NCBI GenBank assembly: GCA_015065935.1
Contig: SVPI01000002.1
Coordinates: 1 to 64,000 of the forward strand
Origin: Oscillospiraceae bacterium
GTDB lineage: Bacteria > Bacillota > Clostridia > Oscillospirales > Acutalibacteraceae
DNA length: 64,000 nt
Reading direction: 5' to 3'
Shown here: piece after piece, positions 2,413-14,516 of the stretch
Position numbering within the stretch: the first letter of the stretch is position 1
How the letters are laid out: every line of letters starts with the position of its first letter
The notes under the pieces: model-generated
Seen by the model: the letters and a program-made list of their open reading frames with translations, nothing else
Told to the model about the DNA's origin: nothing
Databases searched by the model: none
Made by a program: the position numbers and the translations under genes

Positions 2413-2453
2413 CCTCCTGTACAATGCTTACAGCATTGTACAGGAGGTTTTTT
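2413..2453 (+). promoter_or_regulatory. perfect hairpin enclosing the ribosome-binding site of the VTC gene (terminator-like)
   Basis: Arms 2413-2428 and 2432-2447 are perfect 16-bp complements around a 3-nt loop. They are followed by six T (2448-2453) and directly by the ATG at 2454. The 3' arm ends in AGGAGG, which is the ribosome site of the next gene. The hairpin can therefore act as an intrinsic terminator for the two-component operon and, when read through, hide the ribosome site. Confidence 0.75.
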
Positions 2454-3197
2454 ATGGCGTTTGAAACCGTGTTTAAAAGATACGAACTAAAATATATGCT
2501 AACTACTCGGCAAAAGCAACGTGTTCTCAAAGCAATGGAGCCTTTTATGCGGCTTGATAAATACGGCCGAACCACCATTCGAAACCTTTATTTTGATACA
2601 GATTCCTATCTTCTAATTCGCCGTTCCATTGAAAAGCCCGCCTATAAAGAAAAGCTGCGCATCCGCAGTTATAGTAAAGCTAATTCCGACAGCCCCGTTT
2701 TTGTGGAGCTTAAAAAGAAATATAAGCACGTGGTTTATAAACGAAGAATGGCTTTGCCCGAAGCCGATGCAATGAAATGGCTTTCAGGCGAAAAAAACGC
2801 AGAAAATCAGACCCAAATATCAAAGGAAATTGATTATTTTATAGGGTTTTACTCCACGCTTCATCCCACCGTTTTCCTCTCCTATGAGCGGGAGGCCTAT
2901 TATGCAAAGGACGGCTCGGATTTTCGCATAACCTTTGATGATAACATCCTTTGCAGGGAAAGTGATTTGTCCTTACAGTCAGACCCTTACGGCACACCCA
3001 TTTTGCCCGAAGGCAAGGTGTTAATGGAAATTAAATGCTCAGGCGGCATTCCCCTTTGGATGACCGAAATCCTTTCAAAAGAAAGAATATTCAAAACCCC
3101 CTTTTCTAAATACGGAACGGCGTACAAAACGCTTATTTTCCCGCAAACCCATAAAATAAACTCATATAATATGTTGGAGGTAAATAAAGATGTTTGA
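2454..3197 (+). CDS. VTC-domain protein (polyphosphate polymerase-like)
   Basis: 247 residues from ATG 2454, preceded by AGGAGG; an upstream ATG at 2424 lies inside the hairpin and is rejected. The sequence follows the VTC/CYTH-like tunnel fold. It has an N-terminal ETVFKRYELKY segment, basic strands with alternating Arg/Lys (RNLYFDT, KLRIRSY, FVELKKKY) and late acidic metal ligands (LMEIKCSG). Eukaryotic VTC4 makes polyphosphate; bacterial homologues are usually found with DUF4956 and CotH or beta-helix proteins, and their role is poorly known. It overlaps the DUF4956 gene by 8 nt. A spore-coat or envelope role is possible but is not shown by the sequence. Confidence 0.85.
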   Translation: MAFETVFKRYELKYMLTTRQKQRVLKAMEPFMRLDKYGRTTIRNLYFDTDSYLLIRRSIEKPAYKEKLRIRSYSKANSDSPVFVELKKKYKHVVYKRRMALPEADAMKWLSGEKNAENQTQISKEIDYFIGFYSTLHPTVFLSYEREAYYAKDGSDFRITFDDNILCRESDLSLQSDPYGTPILPEGKVLMEIKCSGGIPLWMTEILSKERIFKTPFSKYGTAYKTLIFPQTHKINSYNMLEVNKDV

Positions 3198-3885
3198 TAA
3201 TTTATTTAAAGGATTGTTTGACACCGATTTAACGGCCGTCATCAGCGCTACCGATTTTTTACTATGCCTTGGCTTTTCTTTAGTGTTAGGCCTTGTTATG
3301 GCATTTGCCTATATGTACCGCACACGCTATACTAAAAGCTTTGTAATTACCCTTGCCCTGCTACCGGCTGTGGTTTGTGTTGTGATAATGCTTGTTAACG
3401 GAAATGTTGGAACGGGTGTTGCAGTTGCGGGCGCCTTCAGCCTTGTTCGCTTTCGCTCCGTTCCGGGAACGGCAAAGGAAATTTGCACCCTGTTTTTAGC
3501 AATGGGCACAGGTCTTATAGCAGGTATGGGTTACCTCGGCTTTGCCGTGCTCTTTACAGCGGTTATGTGCATTGTGTTCCTGCTTTATAACCGATTGGAT
3601 TTCGGCGCTAAGAAAAACGACGCCATCTTTAAAACCTTTACTATAACCATCCCCGAGGATTTGGATTATTCGGACATATTCGATGATATTTTTGCCGAGT
3701 TTACTCTTTCTCACGACCTTGTGCGCGTTAAAAGCACAAATATGGGAAGTATGTTCAAGCTAACTTATAATGTAATGCTGCGCGATGCCGCCCGCGAAAA
3801 GGAAATGATTGATAAAATCCGCTGCCGCAACGGGAATCTGGAAATTGTAGTTTCTAAGCAGGAAACTGTTGGCACAGAACTTTAA
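3190..3885 (+). CDS. DUF4956 membrane protein
   Basis: 231 residues with about four membrane helices in the N-terminal 140 residues: near 22-42, 50-70, 75-95 after the glycine-rich turn, and 100-130. The conserved AGAFSLVRFRSVPGTAKEI stretch is typical of DUF4956. A soluble C-terminal domain of mixed alpha/beta character follows. The ribosome site GGAGG lies within the end of the VTC gene, so the two are translationally coupled. DUF4956 proteins recur next to VTC-domain proteins in Firmicutes; the biochemical role is unknown. Confidence 0.85.
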   Translation: MFDNLFKGLFDTDLTAVISATDFLLCLGFSLVLGLVMAFAYMYRTRYTKSFVITLALLPAVVCVVIMLVNGNVGTGVAVAGAFSLVRFRSVPGTAKEICTLFLAMGTGLIAGMGYLGFAVLFTAVMCIVFLLYNRLDFGAKKNDAIFKTFTITIPEDLDYSDIFDDIFAEFTLSHDLVRVKSTNMGSMFKLTYNVMLRDAAREKEMIDKIRCRNGNLEIVVSKQETVGTEL

Positions 3886-3896
3886 CAGGTGTTTTT

Positions 3897-5717
3897 ATGA
3901 AGAAATTTTTATCAATTATATTAGTCCTAACACTTATCTTAAGCCTGCTTTCAGGTTGCGGAAAAAATACCGAAAATAAAACACCGAGTAAAATTCAGGA
4001 ATCTACATCCTCTACTGCTCCCCCGGAGGTTGACTTTTCTAAAACCGACGGTGATATGTTCACCGAACGTGACAGTAACACCGACTATGACGAAAGCACA
4101 GCCGTTTTCATTAAACTAAACGGAACAACGGCCTCTTCAAGCTCGAACAGTGTAAAAATTTCGGGCTCTAAAATTACAATTACTCAGGAGGCAACCTACA
4201 TTGTTTCGGGAGAGCTGACCGATGGAATGCTCATTGTCAATGCCCCCGACACTGCAAAGCTGCAGATTGTTTTAAACGGCGCCAAAATCACAAGCAAAAC
4301 CTCGGCCGCGCTTTATGTTCTCGGCGCCGATAAGGTGTTTTTAACCCTTGCAAAGGAAAGCGAGAACACCCTTATAAACGGTGGCAGTTTTGCCGCTATT
4401 GATGAAAATAATATTGATGCAGCACTCTTTTCAAAGCAAGATTTAACCCTGAACGGAGCAGGCTCACTGACAGTTACCTCCCCTGCAGGACACGGAATTG
4501 TTTGTAAGGATGATTTGGTAATTGCAGGCGGAAGCTACACAGTTAACTCCTCATCCCACGGCCTTGATGCCAACGACAGCGTAAGAATTGCGAACGCTAC
4601 CCTTAATATTGATGCAGGCAAGGACGCCATACACGCCGAGAATTCTGATGATGCTTCTCTTGGTTATATTTATATTGCAAGTGGAACAATCAAAGCGGAG
4701 GCTGAAGGTGACGGAATAGCCGCCAGTGCTTATATGCAGATTGCAAACGGCAAAATAGAGTTGCTTGTTGGCGGTGGTGCAGAGAATGGAACGAAAGCAT
4801 CATCGGGAAATTACGGCGGATTTATGGGCGGCGGTCACGGCGGAATGCGCCCCAGCGGAAATCAAAGCTTTACCTCTACCGAGGACACCGTTAGTATGAA
4901 AGGGCTGAAAGCCGCAAACAGCCTGCTGATTTCGGGCGGTAACATTACCATAAATTCGGCTGATGATTCGGTGCATTCGGATGCTTCGGTTATCATTAAC
5001 GGCGGAACCTTCTCTATAGCATCGGGCGATGATGCCATTCACGCTGAAGACACCCTAACCATAACTGCAGGCAAAATTGATATTAGTGAGAGTTATGAGG
5101 GCCTTGAAGCTCTGCATATAGCTGTGCAGGGCGGCGATATAAAACTCAAAGCCAGCGATGATGGACTAAACGCCGCAGGCGGCACCGACCAAAGCGGCAT
5201 AGAGGGCGGCCGCGACGGAATGTTCGGCGGCGGATTTGGTGGTGGCGGCAGACCCGGCGGTATGGGCGCAGGAGGTATGTCCGCCAGCTCCAACGGCAGC
5301 ATTAAAATATCGGGCGGCACGCTTTATATAAACTCTTCAGGCGATGGTATTGATGCCAACGGAACCTTAGAAATTTCGGGTGGACACACTACGGTTGTCG
5401 GCCCCACACAGGGGGACACCGCCACTCTTGACTATGATAAAAGCGCTACCATTACAGGCGGCACCTTTATCGGCACAGGCGCTCAGGGCATGGCTCAATC
5501 CTTCAGTGATTCAAGTCAAGGCGTTATAGCCATAAGCGTAGGAAGTCAAAGCGCCAACACAAAAATTGTGCTAAAGGACAAAAACTCAAAAACAGTTATT
5601 GAACATTCGCCAGAGCTTAACTTTGCAGTTGTTATTCTCTCAAGCCCTGAAATTATAAAGGGGGAGACCTATACTATTACAGTCGGCTCAAAATCTGGAG
5701 AATTTGAAGCAAATTAA
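3897..5717 (+). CDS. carbohydrate-binding beta-helix lipoprotein (Cthe_2159 family)
   Basis: 606 residues. The signal peptide ends in lipobox LLSGC (C21), so this is predicted to be a surface lipoprotein. The body is a long run of beta-helix turns rich in Asp, Asn and Gly (repeats such as GDDAIHAEDTLTI, GDGIDANGTLEI). This pattern is typical of the Cthe_2159 family, whose founding member binds polygalacturonic acid and calcium. Two very Gly/Met-rich loops interrupt the helix near residues 302-322 and 439-463. It follows the DUF4956 gene after 11 nt and ends the cassette. The likely role is cell-surface or spore-surface binding; the substrate is not shown. Confidence 0.8.
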   Translation: MKKFLSIILVLTLILSLLSGCGKNTENKTPSKIQESTSSTAPPEVDFSKTDGDMFTERDSNTDYDESTAVFIKLNGTTASSSSNSVKISGSKITITQEATYIVSGELTDGMLIVNAPDTAKLQIVLNGAKITSKTSAALYVLGADKVFLTLAKESENTLINGGSFAAIDENNIDAALFSKQDLTLNGAGSLTVTSPAGHGIVCKDDLVIAGGSYTVNSSSHGLDANDSVRIANATLNIDAGKDAIHAENSDDASLGYIYIASGTIKAEAEGDGIAASAYMQIANGKIELLVGGGAENGTKASSGNYGGFMGGGHGGMRPSGNQSFTSTEDTVSMKGLKAANSLLISGGNITINSADDSVHSDASVIINGGTFSIASGDDAIHAEDTLTITAGKIDISESYEGLEALHIAVQGGDIKLKASDDGLNAAGGTDQSGIEGGRDGMFGGGFGGGGRPGGMGAGGMSASSNGSIKISGGTLYINSSGDGIDANGTLEISGGHTTVVGPTQGDTATLDYDKSATITGGTFIGTGAQGMAQSFSDSSQGVIAISVGSQSANTKIVLKDKNSKTVIEHSPELNFAVVILSSPEIIKGETYTITVGSKSGEFEAN

Positions 5718-5762: not shown

Positions 5763-7958
5763 TTAGTTATTAAAAATTTCACATTCCAGGTCATTTACTT
5801 GTAGGAAATGCCTTCCCCTTAAAACCTGCGTTTTGTAATCGTTATCAATATAGGTAAAGTCCTCGTCGCCTAAAATAAATTCGACAGTGACCTTTTCGCC
5901 CTTTTTGATGTTAACCTTTTTAAACTTGCGAAGCTTTCTAACAAAGGGCGTTGTAGGACATTTGGGCGTTCTTACAAAAAGCAAAACGCTTTCAAAAATA
6001 TCGTAATCGCCAACATTTTCAACCTGAACAGTGGCCTTAATCTTGCCGTCTCCCAGATTTTCGGCGGTAAGATTTGAATAGTTAAGCTTTGTATAAGAAA
6101 GGCCATAGCCAAAGGGATACCAAGGGTCGGGGCTTGTGTTAACATAGTCTCTGCCGGGGTTTTCAAGGCTTCCGTGAACCTTATAGAAGCGGCCCCTTGC
6201 CGAGGTTTTATAGTTATAATAGCAAGGCAGATGACCAACCGACTGCGGGAAGGACATTGAAAGCTTTGCCGAGGGTGATTTGTCTCCAAAAATAAGGTTT
6301 GCCATAGCGTGACCGTTTTGGTCGCCTGCGCCGAAGCAGAACATAAAGGCGTTGGCCTTTTCCACCTCATCCTTTATAGCGAAGGGGCGGCCGCCGTAAA
6401 CAATTAAAACGGTGGGCTTGCCAACGGCGATAACGGCATCAAACAGCCTCTTTTGCGAAGGCATAAGCTTAAGCTCCGTAACATCATAGCCCTCGCCGCA
6501 GGTAACATATTTTGCAACCTTTTCATCGCCGCAAATGTCATATCTGTGAGCCGCGGCATCGCCTGCAACGCCGCCGCCAAGGGTTGAGCAATCGCCCAGC
6601 ACCAAAAGCACAGTATCGGCCTGCTTTGCAGTTTCAATCGCATCGGCTATCAGCTTATCGGTTGTGTGCATAGAGCTACAGCCCAATGAATAAAGCACAT
6701 TTTCCTCGCCTAAACGGCTTACAATGCCGTCATAAAGGTCAACACGATGGTCGGTTTTACAGGTATATCCGCCTGTGAAGCTTTCCTTAACATTGTTACC
6801 AATAAGGGCAAGCTTGCCAACCTTTTTCTCATCAAGGGGCAAAATGCCGTCGTTTTCAAGGAGCAGAATAGACTCCTCATCTAGTCTTAGGCAAAGCTTT
6901 TGTGCCTCCTCGCTGTACAAATTCTCATAATCCTCGGGAATTGTATAAGGGTCCTCAAAAAGTCCTAAACGGAATTTAAGCAACAGCACATTATAAACAG
7001 CGGCATCAAGATATTTAATATCAAACTCGCCGTTTTCAATTTCCTTTTTAAGGTCATCATTATAACCGTAAATATCGGGGGCCTCAATGTCAACGCCCGC
7101 CTTTAATGCGAGGCGACCAACATCAACCTTTTCCTCCCCAACGTTGTGGAAATAATGCATCATATCAATAGCAGAATAGTCGGAAACAATGGCGCCGTCA
7201 AAGCCCATTTCCTTTCTTAAAATATCCTGTAGGTATTTAACCGAGCCGTGAACAGGCTCACCGTCAATTTCGCCGTAGGAAGGCATAACCGACATAACGC
7301 CCGCATCAATACACTTTTGGAAGGGCTCCAGCATTACCTCGCGGATTTCCCGCTCTCCTATATGAGCGGGGGCAAGGTTAATGCCACCCTCGGGAACACC
7401 GTAAGCGATAAAATGCTTTGCTGTTGCGGCAACATTATGCTTTTGCACATTTTTAACATAAACTGCGCCCATCTCGCCTGCAAGGTAGGGGTCCTCTCCA
7501 AAGTTTTCGTGAACGCGACCCCAACGAGGCTCGCGGGAAATATCAACATTGGGAGCATAAACCTGGCGAATGCCTGCGGATCTGGCCTCCCTGCCGATTA
7601 TATCGGCCATCTGACCAAAGGCTTCAAGGTCAAAGGAGCCGCCAATGCCTGCGCACTGGGGAAATGCAGTAGCCTTTGGATGAATAAAACCGTGAACTGC
7701 CTCGTAGGCAAAAAGCATGGGGATGCCAAGACGGGTCTTGTTAATGGCATAATCCTGCAGCTTGTTTATTGTATCCTGAGATTTAGGCGTGCTGAACGTG
7801 CCGCCGCGCACCTCAAAACTGCCCGTTTCACATAATTCATCGTAAACCTCATTGATTCTAAGATAAATATGAAGCTGCGCGAATTTTTCATCCAAAGTCA
7901 TTTTAGATAAAAGGTCTTTTGCTCGCTCTTCCGGGGATAGGTTAGGGTTTTTATACAT
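5763..7958 (-). CDS. GH3-family glycosidase (beta-glucosidase/beta-xylosidase type)
   Basis: 731 residues from ATG 7958, which is preceded by GAGG with 7-nt spacing. The longer open frame to 8045 would start inside the promoter at 8017-8045. The N-terminal barrel has RWGRV (145-149), KHF (181-183) and the catalytic nucleophile D260 in GFDGAIVSDY. A GH3 C-terminal alpha/beta domain and a fibronectin-III-like tail (about 620-725) follow. No signal peptide is present, so it works in the cytoplasm on imported oligosaccharides. Exact specificity (beta-glucoside, beta-xyloside or other) cannot be read from sequence. It is monocistronic with its own promoter and a shared terminator. Confidence 0.92.
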   Translation of the reverse strand: MYKNPNLSPEERAKDLLSKMTLDEKFAQLHIYLRINEVYDELCETGSFEVRGGTFSTPKSQDTINKLQDYAINKTRLGIPMLFAYEAVHGFIHPKATAFPQCAGIGGSFDLEAFGQMADIIGREARSAGIRQVYAPNVDISREPRWGRVHENFGEDPYLAGEMGAVYVKNVQKHNVAATAKHFIAYGVPEGGINLAPAHIGEREIREVMLEPFQKCIDAGVMSVMPSYGEIDGEPVHGSVKYLQDILRKEMGFDGAIVSDYSAIDMMHYFHNVGEEKVDVGRLALKAGVDIEAPDIYGYNDDLKKEIENGEFDIKYLDAAVYNVLLLKFRLGLFEDPYTIPEDYENLYSEEAQKLCLRLDEESILLLENDGILPLDEKKVGKLALIGNNVKESFTGGYTCKTDHRVDLYDGIVSRLGEENVLYSLGCSSMHTTDKLIADAIETAKQADTVLLVLGDCSTLGGGVAGDAAAHRYDICGDEKVAKYVTCGEGYDVTELKLMPSQKRLFDAVIAVGKPTVLIVYGGRPFAIKDEVEKANAFMFCFGAGDQNGHAMANLIFGDKSPSAKLSMSFPQSVGHLPCYYNYKTSARGRFYKVHGSLENPGRDYVNTSPDPWYPFGYGLSYTKLNYSNLTAENLGDGKIKATVQVENVGDYDIFESVLLFVRTPKCPTTPFVRKLRKFKKVNIKKGEKVTVEFILGDEDFTYIDNDYKTQVLRGRHFLQVNDLECEIFNN

Positions 7959-8016
7959 AATTATACCTCTTTCCTTTAGCTTTCGGCAGTTGCAAAATTT
8001 GTTATGGTTTTTAAAA

Positions 8017-8211: not shown

Positions 8212-8240
8212 TTGCTTAAATTCAATATATTTGATATAAT
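8212..8240 (+). promoter_or_regulatory. promoter of the 1101-residue protein/NACHT cassette
   Basis: TTGCTT (8212-8217), 17-bp spacer, TATAAT (8235-8240), 40 nt before the ATG at 8280. A G-rich ribosome site (AAGGGGGGGA, 8261-8270) follows. The rest of 8046-8211 is AT-rich with no gene seen. Confidence 0.7.
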
Positions 8241-8279: not shown

Positions 8280-11200
8280 ATGGACTCTGCAATACTTAAT
8301 TTGCTTATTGAAAATGCCATTTCACCTGATGCAGATGCTTCGGATTTAACAATGACACTAAGCAGCAAAAGACTTAATGCTGAGGAAGCCGAAAAGGTTT
8401 TACTTGCCGTTTGTAAGGCAGATATTTTTAAAGCCGCAACCGCAGTTCATTCTATTTTAGGTAGTACAAAGGAAAAGTATGTAAATTTTGTTTACGAAAT
8501 ACTTTTAAGCCGTTGTGAAAACCCCGCTCTTTTAACCAAAGCCGAGCTTTTGGCAATTTTGGCATATAACGATTACAACCTTTTTTGTAGGGTTATTTCA
8601 TATGTTTCCCCCGAAAAAATTAAGGACACCTTTTATAAAATTTCAACAACCAACGCCTGCCGCTTTATGAGAATGTGTATTGACTTTGGCGATGCGCACC
8701 TTATTGAGCTTTGCGAAAACGAATTTTTTACACTTTTAGGCAGCTTTGACAGCCGCGGCTGTGATGAGTTATCAACACTTTTACCCAAGCTCACCTTCCA
8801 TGGCTGTGCAAATATTGTTTCAAGGCTCCTCGATTTTTTCACCCCCGCACAGCTTTCCCGCCTTTATGGTGAAGGCTTTGGAGATGGCCTTAGAGATTTA
8901 ATAACCTCGGGCTATGAATCCCCCGCCATTTGGGATGCCTTTTTCTATGATTTCTTTTCAAAGCCCCACAGTGCAGAGGAACTTCTCACCGAAGGACTGT
9001 GGTTTTTGCAACTGAATGCAACCGATGAATCGGCAGTAGCCTCCTGCTTTTTCCTTTATGCCATTAAAACCCTTTCGTTAAACCACCCCATTTTCCATTA
9101 TATAGAGGGTTTTGAATACCCCAAGACCTTTACAAGAAAGCACACCATTGCTTATGAGGAGGAAATTAAAAAGCTTTGGAGCACACCTAAGGATTTAGTA
9201 AAATTCCTTGATAAAACCAAACTTTGCAACCCCTTTGCAGGCGCCGATGTTGATGAGAAAGAAAAACTTCACATCAGAGAGGAAGGTATTTTCTCCCCTG
9301 CCGATTATGACCTTTTAGGCGAGCTTTTTGAAAACAATGTAAACTGTGAGGAAATTATAACCATTTTCCTTAACACCTTCCTAAAAAAGCGCCTTGTTAT
9401 GGAGGAACTGCTTTATATCAGCGAAACCTTTAACCGCCTTGATGAAATGCTCTCTTCTCTTAAAAACGTTTATTTTGAAGGATTTATTGAAAAATACAAC
9501 CTTGGCGACCTTGTTATTTCACCTAAGGAGTATTACTGCAAGCAGTTACACGTTGTTGTTGTAAATGCGCTTGAATTTAAATATTTTAATGAGAAAAACG
9601 AAAACGACCCAAAGCACTCAAAGGATACCCGCGCCGTTGCGCAGTATCATATTAACAATTTCATTTCGGGCCAGCTTTACATAACCCTAGAACTTCCCGA
9701 AAGTGTTGGCAAGGAAGCCGCCGCACAAAAAAGCTGGGAGGAAATTGTTACTAACTTTGAGGAAATTCTCACCCATCAGGAAATTGGCGAAAAGGATAAA
9801 CGCAGCCTAAAAAATGCCTTTGATTTTTCCGAAAGTCTTTTTGTTGAGGAGTATGATTTTGACCTGTTCACAGCCGCTATTTGCGGGCACAGCGAAAAGC
9901 TGACTGATATTTTGGAAATTTTAAAAACTGCAGGCTGGAACGAAACCTTCAGGCATTCCCACGTTAGAATTGACAGCCACTTTTACACCGATTTTGAAAA
10001 ATACCGTGGCCCCGCCATTAAAATGTTTAAACAGCTAATTTCCGAGGGGCAAAGCTATGATGACATTTTAACCCTGTATTTTGATAGCATTTATAAGCTC
10101 ATTGTGCCCTTGCAAATTCTTCTTATAATTTCCGAAAAGGAAAAGGTGCTCGATGCCCTCTCCCGCCGTATTATTTATTGCAATATGCCAATGAAGGATA
10201 AAAGGGTTCAGTGCCGACCTATGACCATTGCCTGCGCCCCCATTTGCACAATGATTGATGCAGATAATTTCATTTATAACAAGGTGCCTGCAAGGTGTGT
10301 TGATTACACCATGGGCGATGGCTACATTGAGCGAATTATTTTTGAAAACGCGGCAACAGGTGTGTTTGACACACGCGAGCGTGGCAACTGGTTTGGCTAC
10401 ATTGCCGCTAATATGCAGCTCCATTCAACCAAAAAAAGCTTTATTCCCCGCCTGCCCGATGCCACTGAATATGACATTCGCGAAATGGTGTTTATTCTTG
10501 ATTGTATGGAGGCCGCCATTATACTGCGCAAAAATTCAAAAGAGGATTTAAATCAGTTGATTGATGCTATGGGCGTTAAAAATCCCTTTGCCTTTAGGGA
10601 GGATACCCGCTTAGAAATCAACTACCTTTCAAAATTCCTTGATAAGAAAAAAACCGCAGGCAACAAATCGGCAATGTCGGTTGTTATTTTAAGCGCCGAT
10701 AACATTGGTGAAATTGCAAAGCTTTACCTTAACACAAACTTTAAATATTATCTCACGGTAAGCGAGCTGATTTCCCTAATTAGAAACCGCCGACAAGACC
10801 TTTTTGAGAAAATCGATGACCTTTTCTCTAGCATTTCCTTTGAATGCGCTGTGGATAACGAGGGCTACCTCTGGTCACCCTTTATAAACCAAAACACATT
10901 AAAAGTTAGCGGGGAGTATTGCGGTTATAGTGTTCTTTGCCGCATTTATTATGAGGCAGGGTCATTAAAGGCCGAGGTCACTTCGGTTCAGCGAAAAGCC
11001 TCACCCTTAAATGCCATTTTACCCGCTTTAATGATAGGCTACTCCCTAAATGACAGCATTGTGCCCATCATTAAAAACTTGCTGGTTAAAAACGCTTCTC
11101 TAACCGAGGAGGAGCTAAGAAACGTCCTTAACGATAAACGTAGCCTTATAGTTAAAGCCGTAAAGCTCATTGACCCTAACAAGAATCCCCTGCTTATTAA

Positions 11201-11585
11201 AAAAAGCAATTCCGATAGGGTTAAAACAGCACTCAGCGCCGCAGAAAATGCTATAAGCGAGTCCGATTTTGACCTGCAAAAGCTTAAGAATGCCACATTC
11301 CATATGATTAAGGACAACTGCGATTATGCCTCGGTTTATGAAATGGAAAATGCCCTCGCCTGCATTACTCAGCTTTTAATGCAACGCTTTTGCCGTGAAG
11401 AGGAGGTTGTTTTCACATTTTTAAACTATATTTTCCCAAGCTACTCCTTTTTTTACCGCGATAACGGCATTGTGGATGTATGGGAAAAGCAGTTAATCGG
11501 CTTTTTTGGCGAAGATGCCACAGCCGAGTTTGTCCAAAATATTAAATCAGGCGAAAGATACCTTAAAAATAAAAAAGTTTTCTAA
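8280..11585 (+). CDS. large protein of unknown function paired with a NACHT NTPase
   Basis: 1101 residues, starting at ATG 8280 after AAGGGGGGGA. I do not recognise a domain. No signal peptide, membrane helix, P-loop or known nuclease motif is seen. Residues about 1-650 look mostly alpha-helical with repeated short amphipathic Leu-rich helices, as in TPR/HEAT-like scaffolds. A Cys-containing stretch lies near 643-665, and a probable beta-rich module near 850-905 contains alternating hydrophobic strands and several aromatics. The C-terminal 190 residues are again helical. The HEPN-NACHT gene starts 23 nt downstream on the same transcript, so the proteins are likely partners. It may supply the ligand-sensing part that the short NACHT protein lacks (inference). 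Codon style resembles the neighbouring genes. Confidence 0.8.
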   Translation: MDSAILNLLIENAISPDADASDLTMTLSSKRLNAEEAEKVLLAVCKADIFKAATAVHSILGSTKEKYVNFVYEILLSRCENPALLTKAELLAILAYNDYNLFCRVISYVSPEKIKDTFYKISTTNACRFMRMCIDFGDAHLIELCENEFFTLLGSFDSRGCDELSTLLPKLTFHGCANIVSRLLDFFTPAQLSRLYGEGFGDGLRDLITSGYESPAIWDAFFYDFFSKPHSAEELLTEGLWFLQLNATDESAVASCFFLYAIKTLSLNHPIFHYIEGFEYPKTFTRKHTIAYEEEIKKLWSTPKDLVKFLDKTKLCNPFAGADVDEKEKLHIREEGIFSPADYDLLGELFENNVNCEEIITIFLNTFLKKRLVMEELLYISETFNRLDEMLSSLKNVYFEGFIEKYNLGDLVISPKEYYCKQLHVVVVNALEFKYFNEKNENDPKHSKDTRAVAQYHINNFISGQLYITLELPESVGKEAAAQKSWEEIVTNFEEILTHQEIGEKDKRSLKNAFDFSESLFVEEYDFDLFTAAICGHSEKLTDILEILKTAGWNETFRHSHVRIDSHFYTDFEKYRGPAIKMFKQLISEGQSYDDILTLYFDSIYKLIVPLQILLIISEKEKVLDALSRRIIYCNMPMKDKRVQCRPMTIACAPICTMIDADNFIYNKVPARCVDYTMGDGYIERIIFENAATGVFDTRERGNWFGYIAANMQLHSTKKSFIPRLPDATEYDIREMVFILDCMEAAIILRKNSKEDLNQLIDAMGVKNPFAFREDTRLEINYLSKFLDKKKTAGNKSAMSVVILSADNIGEIAKLYLNTNFKYYLTVSELISLIRNRRQDLFEKIDDLFSSISFECAVDNEGYLWSPFINQNTLKVSGEYCGYSVLCRIYYEAGSLKAEVTSVQRKASPLNAILPALMIGYSLNDSIVPIIKNLLVKNASLTEEELRNVLNDKRSLIVKAVKLIDPNKNPLLIKKSNSDRVKTALSAAENAISESDFDLQKLKNATFHMIKDNCDYASVYEMENALACITQLLMQRFCREEEVVFTFLNYIFPSYSFFYRDNGIVDVWEKQLIGFFGEDATAEFVQNIKSGERYLKNKKVF

Positions 11586-11608
11586 TTATCACGAAGGGAT
11601 GCTTTAAA

Positions 11609-13237
11609 GTGGAACAATCAATTAAAACCATAATTTCCAAGGAATTGCGACAGGTTTTTACTAATTTATCAATAGATGAAGCCCTAGACCTTTATGAAAA
11701 GGTTGCAAAAATGGACTCCACTGCCGAAACCTCTATTCGCAATACCTGGCTTGAGAACATCAGCGATTTTTACAGCTTTTCGGAAAGCATTGAAAGCAAC
11801 TACAAATTCCTTATGAACTTTGAGGGCTTCCTTAAAAAGGTTTTATACCTCGTTAACGAAACCGTATATAACAACTATAAGGGTGACAATACAAAATGCC
11901 TTTACTCTGTTATGGAATACTTGGGGCTTTTCAGAAATATTCCTCAAAATATAAATGTCAGCAACTATAATCCAAATAATTTCACAAACCCCATAAACCG
12001 CGCCGTAGTTTGGGCATACCAACAACGAAACGAAACTGTGCATAATGCAGAATCTATGTCGGTAAGTGAAATGCTTTCTGATGTAAAAAATGTTATGATT
12101 ACCACCCTTGATGCGGTTTGGCGCAACAAGGCGGCTATTGAATCCAAAATAAACAAGGTTATAGGCGAATCCCAATTTGGCATTGAAACACTTATGAAAA
12201 AGATTGTAAGTGACTATGAGGGAACACTGCACGATGGCTTTGTCTATGTTCCCCTTTTGTGGGAAAGCGATGTGAGTGATTCTGATGAGGTTCAGTCAAA
12301 ATCTATGCAAATCAGCCAGCTTCTTGAGGACCGCCATATTCTTTTAGCAGGTGATGCCGGCTGTGGAAAAACCACATCCCTTGAAAACCTTGAATACCAG
12401 GCGGCAAAAAGATATCTGTCAAATCAGTCCCCCTGCATTCCCGTTAACATTGCCCTTATAAACGAAAGCATTGATTCCTCCTTACAGGAAATGATTTGCC
12501 GCAAGCTTAACATTTCCATTTCCTTCTGCGAGCAGTTACTTGAAAAGGGCTCTATCTACCTGCTTATTGATGGTCTTAATGAATATACCACCGATATTGA
12601 GCGCAAAAAGGCGCTGGTAACCTCAATAGAAAAGCTTTTTGTGTCATATCCAAAGGTTTTTGTCGCCCTTACCGATAGGCGCTACTCCCCCTACCCCGTT
12701 CGCGTTAATAAAACCTACCATTTAAAGCGAATGGATAAGGAAAATATCCTTCAATATGCCGAATCAAAGACCGAAGCAAACAAAAATACCCTTGCATTGC
12801 TTGAGGAAATTCTCGATAGCAACGCATTCGAAAACCTTGAATTTACCCCGCTTCTTGTTAATCAGCTTATTATTGCCCTTTCCTCAAGCGGCGTAATTCC
12901 CTCTGACCTTACCGAGCTTATCGGTATGTACCTTGAGGCACTGTTTAAGCGTGAATATGTAGATAAACGCGTTGCCACCGCTGCCCCCGGTAAGCTGGAT
13001 GTAATTTTAATGGGTCTTGCCCTTGCTAAGGAGGATGAGGGCGGCGGAATTAACTACTACCGCGCGCTAAGGGTTTGTGCAGAAACTGCACATAAATACG
13101 GTATAAACCTTGAGTCCGATGCCTGTATTACCCTCGCAATTCAGTTAGGCATTTTAACCCGCATGGGCGACCAAATCGACTTTGTCCTTAAAAATTACCG
13201 CACCTATTACCTCCTTAAGGCGGCCGACAGCGAATAA
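11609..13237 (+). CDS. HEPN-NACHT NTPase (STAND class)
   Basis: 542 residues. The N-terminal helical region (about 55-180) carries RNETVH (R140-x4-H145), the R-N-x3-H signature of HEPN domains, many of which are RNases. The NACHT NTPase has Walker A GDAGCGKTT (G248-T256), Walker B IYLLIDGLNE (D321, E325) and a sensor-like LTDRR (354-358), followed by winged-helix-like segments to about 450. Only some 90 residues follow, so it lacks the long LRR/TPR/WD sensor tail usual in NACHT defence proteins. The start gives a protein with its P-loop in the expected place. It follows the 1101-residue gene by 23 nt and ends at a strong terminator. A defence or abortive-infection role is inferred from family behaviour only. 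Confidence 0.85.
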   Translation: MEQSIKTIISKELRQVFTNLSIDEALDLYEKVAKMDSTAETSIRNTWLENISDFYSFSESIESNYKFLMNFEGFLKKVLYLVNETVYNNYKGDNTKCLYSVMEYLGLFRNIPQNINVSNYNPNNFTNPINRAVVWAYQQRNETVHNAESMSVSEMLSDVKNVMITTLDAVWRNKAAIESKINKVIGESQFGIETLMKKIVSDYEGTLHDGFVYVPLLWESDVSDSDEVQSKSMQISQLLEDRHILLAGDAGCGKTTSLENLEYQAAKRYLSNQSPCIPVNIALINESIDSSLQEMICRKLNISISFCEQLLEKGSIYLLIDGLNEYTTDIERKKALVTSIEKLFVSYPKVFVALTDRRYSPYPVRVNKTYHLKRMDKENILQYAESKTEANKNTLALLEEILDSNAFENLEFTPLLVNQLIIALSSSGVIPSDLTELIGMYLEALFKREYVDKRVATAAPGKLDVILMGLALAKEDEGGGINYYRALRVCAETAHKYGINLESDACITLAIQLGILTRMGDQIDFVLKNYRTYYLLKAADSE

Positions 13238-13257: not shown

Positions 13258-13293
13258 AAAGCACCCAACCATCAGGTTGGGTGCTTTAATTTT
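13258..13293. terminator. bidirectional intrinsic terminator
   Basis: AAAGCACCCAACC (13258-13270) pairs with GGTTGGGTGCTTT (13275-13287), 4-nt loop. A-rich and T-rich flanks let it end both the NACHT cassette and the convergent esterase gene. Confidence 0.9.
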
Positions 13294-14451
13294 TTATTTT
13301 TCAGGGCAACGCCAATCGTAAATAAGCTCGGGTTTTTTAAAGGGTGTGTGATAAAAATCCTCACTCAAATTGTCGCCGTAATATTCATTTCTTATAATGT
13401 TTACAAGCATTAAAATGTCCTGCACGGTGTGATAATGATAGCCGCGCCTGAAATACCAGAAAAGATTTTCTTCGCACTCATAAAGCTTATAAACCTCACT
13501 TGCCGCCATGGTGGTCATCCAAGAGCCAACAGGGTTTGCCCAGATATCACTTGCCGCTTCGCTTACAAACAGCTTGCGCGGGGCTACCATTGCCTTTAAA
13601 AAGTGGGAATCAAAGGGCAGCTTTTCCTCGCAGAAGGCGTAGTCCCTCATCTTTTCGCCAATCCAATAGCCATACCAGTCAGATAACGTATCCAGCTTTT
13701 CGCTCTGCCAGGGGCCACCATCCTCGGTTAAGGCTTTAATGTGAATTCTGTAACAGCCACAGCTGCCTGCACAGGTTTCGTTAGGATTAACCACCTTTGC
13801 CCTTTCATCCAAAACACCTGCGAGCATTGCGGTTTTGGCGCCTCTTGAATGTCCCGTAAATGCGATGTAGTCTAGGTCTACCTTTTCGTGACCTATAACC
13901 TCCAAAGCGTCAACACACCTTGAATAACCCCACGCCCAGGCGCCTATAGCGCCAAAGGTATAATCAGGGTAAATGTCATAAAGGGGGCCCTGGCGCCTGC
14001 CCTCATTTGGCACATCGTTTGCAAGCTCGGTTCGGTTAAAAAGGACATAGCCAACGCCGTTATCAAGCATTGCACTTAAAAATTCCTTATCCCTTGCATA
14101 GTCAAAACAGCCGTCGCCATCAACAATAAAGGGCATTTTATTTTCCCCCTTGGGAACAAACACCTGCATTATAAAGGAAAGGGTTTGTTTGCCGGTTCCT
14201 GCGGTTATGCGGTAGGAACTGCTTCTGCCCTCCCCGCCTTTATAAATGGTGTCAACCCTTAAAACTTCGGGGGCAGGCGGCATAGTGCCATATTGCAGTT
14301 CAACCGCAGTTTTATAAAGCTCTTTTTTGTGCTCCTCAAATTCCGCCGCCGTTTTAACCCTTGTTCCGTCGCTCTTTAAAAATGGGTCAGGCAGCTTTCC
14401 AAGCACCTCATATTCCGTGATTTTTATAAGATTTTCATCATAGTCAACCAT
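13294..14451 (-). CDS. CE15-like alpha/beta hydrolase (glucuronoyl/acetylxylan esterase-like)
   Basis: 385 residues from ATG 14451 (AGGAG 8 nt upstream); a GTG three codons earlier lies too close to that site. The alpha/beta-hydrolase fold shows the nucleophile elbow FTGHSRGAK (S202), a probable acid E225 in NPNET, and a late His in RRGYHYHT (H339 or H341). The segment LPFDSHFLKAMVAPRKLFVSEAASDIWANP is shared with CE15-like esterases, which cut glucuronate-lignin or acetyl esters on xylan. No signal peptide is seen, so it is cytoplasmic. With the GH3 enzyme nearby this suggests hemicellulose-fragment breakdown. The exact ester substrate is unknown. Confidence 0.75.
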   Translation of the reverse strand: MVDYDENLIKITEYEVLGKLPDPFLKSDGTRVKTAAEFEEHKKELYKTAVELQYGTMPPAPEVLRVDTIYKGGEGRSSSYRITAGTGKQTLSFIMQVFVPKGENKMPFIVDGDGCFDYARDKEFLSAMLDNGVGYVLFNRTELANDVPNEGRRQGPLYDIYPDYTFGAIGAWAWGYSRCVDALEVIGHEKVDLDYIAFTGHSRGAKTAMLAGVLDERAKVVNPNETCAGSCGCYRIHIKALTEDGGPWQSEKLDTLSDWYGYWIGEKMRDYAFCEEKLPFDSHFLKAMVAPRKLFVSEAASDIWANPVGSWMTTMAASEVYKLYECEENLFWYFRRGYHYHTVQDILMLVNIIRNEYYGDNLSEDFYHTPFKKPELIYDWRCPEK

Positions 14452-14516
14452 TATTATCACTCCTATGAAAATTTACAACTTTAATATATCACAACAATTT
14501 CTTTTTTACAATAAAA

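Follow-up and report, generated by a model that had tools for sequence, protein, structure and literature searches.

A conserved gene pair of a compact, probably HEPN-bearing NACHT protein and a large three-motif partner: a possible split NLR-like unit in bacteria

In the usual description of bacterial NACHT proteins, a single chain combines effector, switch, and sensor; where, then, does sensing take place when such a protein ends with its NTPase module? The locus considered here poses this question. In the window (the whole 64,000-nt stretch of DNA analyzed), a large gene, ORF A, and a compact NACHT gene, ORF B, lie on one strand with a gap of 23 nt, as a first-pass annotation of this DNA had reported (Table 1). 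Stretches resembling ribosome-binding sites, read by eye, precede both (AAGGGGGGG for ORF A and GAAGGGA for ORF B). If the sensor sits in another gene, sensing and switching can be tested one by one. The two parts would then be exchangeable and could evolve apart, as in animal paired receptors, giving bacteria a counterpart to the NAIP/NLRC4 division of labor.

Table 1. Features of the ORF A–ORF B locus, in window coordinates
Feature	Position	Strand	Description or basis
Possible sigma-70 promoter	8212..8240	+	TTGCTT-17-TATAAT; read from sequence; weak
ORF A	8280..11585	+	ATG start, 1101 aa; large partner of a likely new family, probably the sensor or a licensing subunit
ORF A motif copy 1	9348..9431	+	residues 357-384, EEIITIFLNTFLKKRLVMEELLYISETF; PSSM score 13.1
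ORF A motif copy 2	10059..10142	+	residues 594-621, DDILTLYFDSIYKLIVPLQILLIISEKE; PSSM score 12.2
ORF A motif copy 3	10707..10790	+	residues 810-837, GEIAKLYLNTNFKYYLTVSELISLIRNR; PSSM score 18.3
ORF B	11609..13237	+	GTG start, 542 aa; compact, likely HEPN-NACHT protein
N-terminal helical domain of ORF B, likely HEPN type	11609..12304	+	profile of four homologues against ApeA HEPN
HEPN catalytic-type motif RNx3H	12026..12043	+	R140-N-E-T-V-H145; invariant in four homologues
NACHT NTPase module of ORF B	12305..12943	+	residues 233-445; PF05729, model, Foldseek
Walker A	12350..12376	+	GDAGCGKTT, residues 248-256; invariant positions in four B homologues
Walker B	12569..12583	+	DGLNE, residues 321-325; invariant positions in four B homologues
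C-terminal winged-helix-like segment of ORF B	12944..13234	+	aligned end with NACHT proteins, three homologues
Intrinsic terminator	13258..13287	.	13 pairs; usable from both strands

The compact NACHT protein and its N-terminal domain

The NTPase is the clearest part of ORF B. The Pfam NACHT family (PF05729) scores 41.4 bits over residues 243–386 (E = 1.7e-10; cutoff, 26.7 bits), and a structure model built from an alignment of fourteen sequences has a pLDDT of mostly 70–92 over about residues 233–445 and is poor elsewhere. Foldseek pairs the modeled NACHT module with NOD2, NLRC4, and NLRP3 at a probability of 1.0. In an alignment of four B homologues (ORF B and three proteins from other genomes, described below), invariant positions are found in both Walker A (G248, A250, G251, G253, K254, and T256) and Walker B (D321, G322, N324, and E325), and the two motifs lie where the first-pass annotation had placed them.

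That annotation had also remarked that little follows the NTPase module, and the alignment agrees. ORF B ends at the position occupied in other NACHT proteins by an F-x-H-x2-[FY]-x-E-Y-F helix, so that nothing comes after the NTPase/winged-helix module, and all four homologues stop just past the winged helix. With its Walker motifs, winged helix, and NACHT profile match, ORF B has the hallmarks of NACHT/STAND proteins; judged by length and alignment, it carries neither a C-terminal sensor nor a SNaCT/NCH domain. These comparisons support reading ORF B as a NACHT protein without a C-terminal sensor.

The N terminus of ORF B is likely of HEPN type, an assignment drawn from profile matches with weak E-values together with an invariant motif. 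R140, N141, and H145, the first and last of which form the signature noted at first pass, are invariant in all four homologues, whose N-terminal identity is as low as 17–19%; the motif has the form Rx4-6H and lies in a domain that is all-helical in a low-confidence model (pLDDT about 45 over this region). A profile of the four N termini matches the HEPN domain of the antiviral protein ApeA (PDB 9hxb, residues 456–518, E = 0.03; E = 0.03–0.05 across this and two further ApeA entries) with Y-x2-RNxxxH aligned in register, and one homologue, L082, matches the HEPN families PF18737 (E = 0.029) and PF18739 (E = 0.19), all of these matches being weak and below curated cutoffs. The likeness to ApeA, whose 593-aa chain includes other domains, is limited to the HEPN part, and no NACHT module was matched. 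A MotA/ExbB-type match of the same profile (E = 0.006) falls on another helical stretch and was taken as general helical similarity.

A large adjacent partner at four loci

ORF A has no significant match in Pfam, NCBIfam, PHROGs, PADLOC, or the PDB. Direct searches with it returned only its own genome from overlapping sets of 98 relatives, 398 same-family, 391 class, and 329 phylum genomes, and it has no match in plasmids, phages, IMG/VR, or GTDB-220 contigs; the window protein as sole query has low sensitivity and reveals close relatives only. A single-sequence structure model was uninformative (pLDDT 36). Several candidate identities were set aside: matches to Glycyl-tRNA synthetase, Cbl_N2, and Sta1 were sub-threshold and without support, and two weak matches, L058 (RmuC-like coiled coil) and L056 (extracellular solute-binding protein), both named from their sequences, were inspected and judged to be chance. 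One segment resembles the end of CspA by eye, the origin of the idea that ORF A represents a TPR/cold-shock tail separated from a HEPN-STAND protein; no TPR, S1, or CSD profile matches ORF A or its units, and the idea is only a lead.

The relatives of ORF B were more informative about its neighbor. A Walker-A-based scan of GTDB genomes found L061, a locus in an Oscillospiraceae MAG from water deer cecum. The 559-aa protein encoded there aligns with ORF B over residues 14–524 (E = 1.6e-39 by phmmer within a set of five proteins; E = 2e-35 by tblastn among the candidates). A profile of ORF B and this protein, run over 178 genomes of the family of L061, then led to L081 (549 aa) and L082 (553 aa). 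These three full-length homologues from outside the window genome are 23–27% identical to ORF B. The distribution is very sparse, with homologues in 3 of the 178 genomes from one family and 1 of the 35 from one genus; beyond the window's own, no further full-length homologue appeared in 89 genomes of the order and 35 of the genus.

Each of the four full-length B homologues (4/4) has a large partner gene beside it, separated by 8–23 nt, which supports the first-pass pairing of the two proteins. The order is A-B in the window and B-A at L061, L081, and L082. The L061 partner begins 16 nt downstream of B and extends for at least 499 aa before running off the contig, and those of L081 (975 aa) and L082 (977 aa) have a likely ATG 8 nt after the B stop, the ORF-lister lengths of 979 and 981 aa reflecting upstream TTG starts. 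A 979-aa plus-strand ORF at L081 is an antisense artifact, the true partner lying on the minus strand. L081 and L082 are 66% identical in B and 58% in A, so that the sample of four loci, all in draft assemblies and with one partner cut by a contig end, represents three well-separated branches, not four.

The flanking genes differ at all four loci, which indicates that the pair itself is the conserved unit. It lies between a GH3 glycosidase (5763–7961) and a glucuronoyl-esterase-like gene (13294–14460) in the window; its neighbors are a Crp-type regulator and an eCIS-core protein at L061, a transglutaminase-like protein and a nitrite/sulphite-reductase-type oxidoreductase near L081, and an ABC transporter and a TPR protein at L082. 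In 35 genomes searched with a profile of the L081 and L082 partners, no partner turned up in the absence of B; within this scope, ORF A-alone searches being insensitive, the outcomes that the first-pass annotation would have held against its proposal, among them the occurrence of the large protein mainly without a NACHT gene, were not seen.

The partners carry a motif, hYhNTxFK-x5-ELI, in three copies per complete protein, about 215–250 residues apart (at 363/600/816 in the window, 395/645/883 in L081, and 400/650/888 in L082); in L061 the first copy is at 379, and the contig end follows. We first spotted the motif by eye in the match between L061 and the window, and the test with a position-specific scoring matrix (PSSM) built solely from the non-window copies is accordingly a left-out check rather than blind discovery. 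This matrix picks out exactly three sites in ORF A, scoring 18.3, 13.1, and 12.2, with the next site at 3.5. The highest score was equaled by the best site in 1 of 2,000 shuffles, the observed second and third scores were equaled in none of the 2,000, and none of about 427 background ORFs matched the score of the weakest copy. A window-only matrix ranks the three sites of L081 and L082 top within those proteins, gives low scores to the first copy of each, and scores some background ORFs up to 15. In ORF A, an N-terminal region of about 360 residues precedes the three motif-bearing units. The recurrence of the HEPN and Walker motifs of ORF B and of the pairing in three further genomes argues that neither is due to chance.

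Whole-length identity between ORF A and the other partners is too low for ordinary tools (21% across 290 residues by blastp, with E = 2.6e-4 against a database of four sequences; E = 0.005–0.03 at low probability by hhalign). The partners nevertheless likely form one new family, with the membership of the L061 protein resting on one motif copy and its position. This family, in which no domain is recognized, stands beside the switch in both gene orders.

A possible division of sensing and switching

Because ORF A is the only other constant component, it is the candidate for the missing sensor. NTP-driven oligomerization is established for NLRs and bNACHT proteins, and by analogy the NACHT module of ORF B would bind and hydrolyze NTP and oligomerize once licensed. 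ORF A would recognize a trigger and engage the bare NACHT/winged-helix face of ORF B in a physical complex; oligomerization would gather the HEPN domains, which we infer to be RNases, and thereby lead to RNA cleavage and growth arrest, probably during phage infection. We see an even chance that the two proteins form a split NLR-like unit of this kind, with ORF A as sensor or licensing subunit, ORF B as NTPase switch and HEPN RNase, and a probably anti-phage role. The more specific proposal of a split-receptor bacterial NLR, in which a minimal HEPN-NACHT switch-effector is served by a separately encoded sensor from a three-unit family, is tentative, and we place it somewhat below even. ORF A has neither a confident fold nor a recognizable ligand-binding domain, which counts against a split receptor.

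HEPN-MNT is a known case of a HEPN toxin with an antitoxin partner, and the tight pairing of ORF A and ORF B could be read in the same way, with ORF B as an NTP-gated HEPN toxin restrained by ORF A as inhibitor until the latter is lost or changed. ORF A even comes first in the window, like many antitoxins. We regard this as unlikely, though the strongest of the alternatives: ORF A is twice the size of ORF B and far above a typical antitoxin, its 1101 residues give no nucleotidyltransferase match, ORF B carries a full NACHT switch, which sets it apart from HEPN-MNT, and B precedes A at three loci. This toxin–neutralizer reading keeps ORF A as the trigger-responsive part; its main difference from the split unit is that ORF A's control of ORF B has the opposite sign.

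The two complete counterparts of ORF A are near it in length and equal in motif copy number, as might also be expected if ORF A were itself an effector or enzyme, or served as a scaffold, such as a repeat protein that binds nucleic acid, and were regulated by NTP hydrolysis in ORF B. The HEPN domain of ORF B may then serve solely for dimerization, and some HEPN domains are indeed noncatalytic (PMC3710099). The invariant R, N, and H of the B proteins suggest catalysis, however, and no catalytic family was found in ORF A, making such an arrangement improbable.

A compact HEPN-NACHT protein with such a partner is not described in the databases and open papers that we searched, and the first-pass statement that no described system has this pairing held to that extent. 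In PADLOC-DB, no partner matches a system model (the L061 partner gives a weak, short Cas11a match, E = 0.018), and ORF B and its homologues give short or partial matches only, nearly all around the P-loop. bNACHT25 joins an N-terminal PD-(D/E)XK nuclease effector to a NACHT switch, and the SNaCT proteins of clade 14 have NACHT with a short C-terminal domain alone (PMC12169576). ORF B has the NACHT switch in common with these proteins, but described bNACHT proteins bear a C-terminal domain on the NACHT chain, whereas ORF B ends at its winged helix with a separate partner adjacent, and its effector is likely of HEPN type where that of bNACHT25 is a DNase. Bacterial HEPN-STAND proteins, including those with TPR and S1/cold-shock parts, are single chains (Anantharaman 2013, PMC3710099); they too join HEPN to a STAND-class NTPase, but their repeat or RNA-binding part is fused, whereas here a separate gene encodes a protein of another, unrecognized family. 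The nSTAND2 systems likewise consist of two genes; their effector is HEPN or GT4, HEPN can be carried by a STAND protein, and both proteins are STAND NTPases (PMC8195603). There the HEPN domain is on the inactive STAND protein, whereas here the likely HEPN domain is on ORF B, with Walker motifs intact, and no P-loop family was found in ORF A or its counterparts, leaving one STAND protein where nSTAND2 systems have two.

Expression signals and genomic context

The locus is bounded by two predicted expression signals of unequal quality. The terminator proposed at first pass is strong (13 pairs, folding z = −6.9, none of 200 shuffles equally stable), and, being symmetric, can also serve the convergent gene that follows ORF B. 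The promoter proposal stood in part: it has a perfect −10 box, TATAAT at 8235–8240, and a 17-nt spacer, but the −35 box has 3 of 6 consensus matches and the site is absent from the list of a promoter scan, making it the weakest part of the locus observation.

Sparse distribution is usual for defense genes, and that of the pair counts in favor of a defense role. On the other side stand its ordinary neighbors in the window, carbohydrate-related and other genes with no phage-defense context, searches of phage, plasmid, and viral collections that found no relative, and a codon usage in ORF A and ORF B that equals that of the surrounding host genes. Few relatives have the pair, yet this host-like codon usage implies that any gain was not recent or that the donor was similar. 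The same codon usage and the metabolic neighbors would suit a non-defense regulatory pair of gut Clostridia-type bacteria, acting for instance in RNA turnover under stress, which we nonetheless rank as the least probable reading because the pair is missing from nearly all relatives, same-genus and same-family genomes included, and its loci have no neighborhood in common.

We made several further observations on the surroundings. The glucuronoyl-esterase-like gene is patchy among relatives (8 of 45 genomes), and upstream, at 2424–5717 of the window, genes for VTC-domain, DUF4956, and Cthe_2159-type carbohydrate-binding proteins lie in a row. At L061, the eCIS_core protein (PF13699, E = 1.3e-20; L061:1290–2480) adjoins the B homologue on the opposite strand, a neighbor not seen at the other three loci. 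The plasmid NACHT matches inspected (H1 and H5–H7) have no partner of the ORF A kind, and none with similarity to the window ORF A, a measure that partners as diverged as those of L081 and L082 would escape, adjoins L037–L055, other NACHT genes from the window's bacterial family. Among these, L037–L040 form a compact NACHT group within the bacterial family of the window, with proteins of 614–631 aa where complete that have a different short N terminus and, beyond the NACHT module, a longer tail than ORF B.
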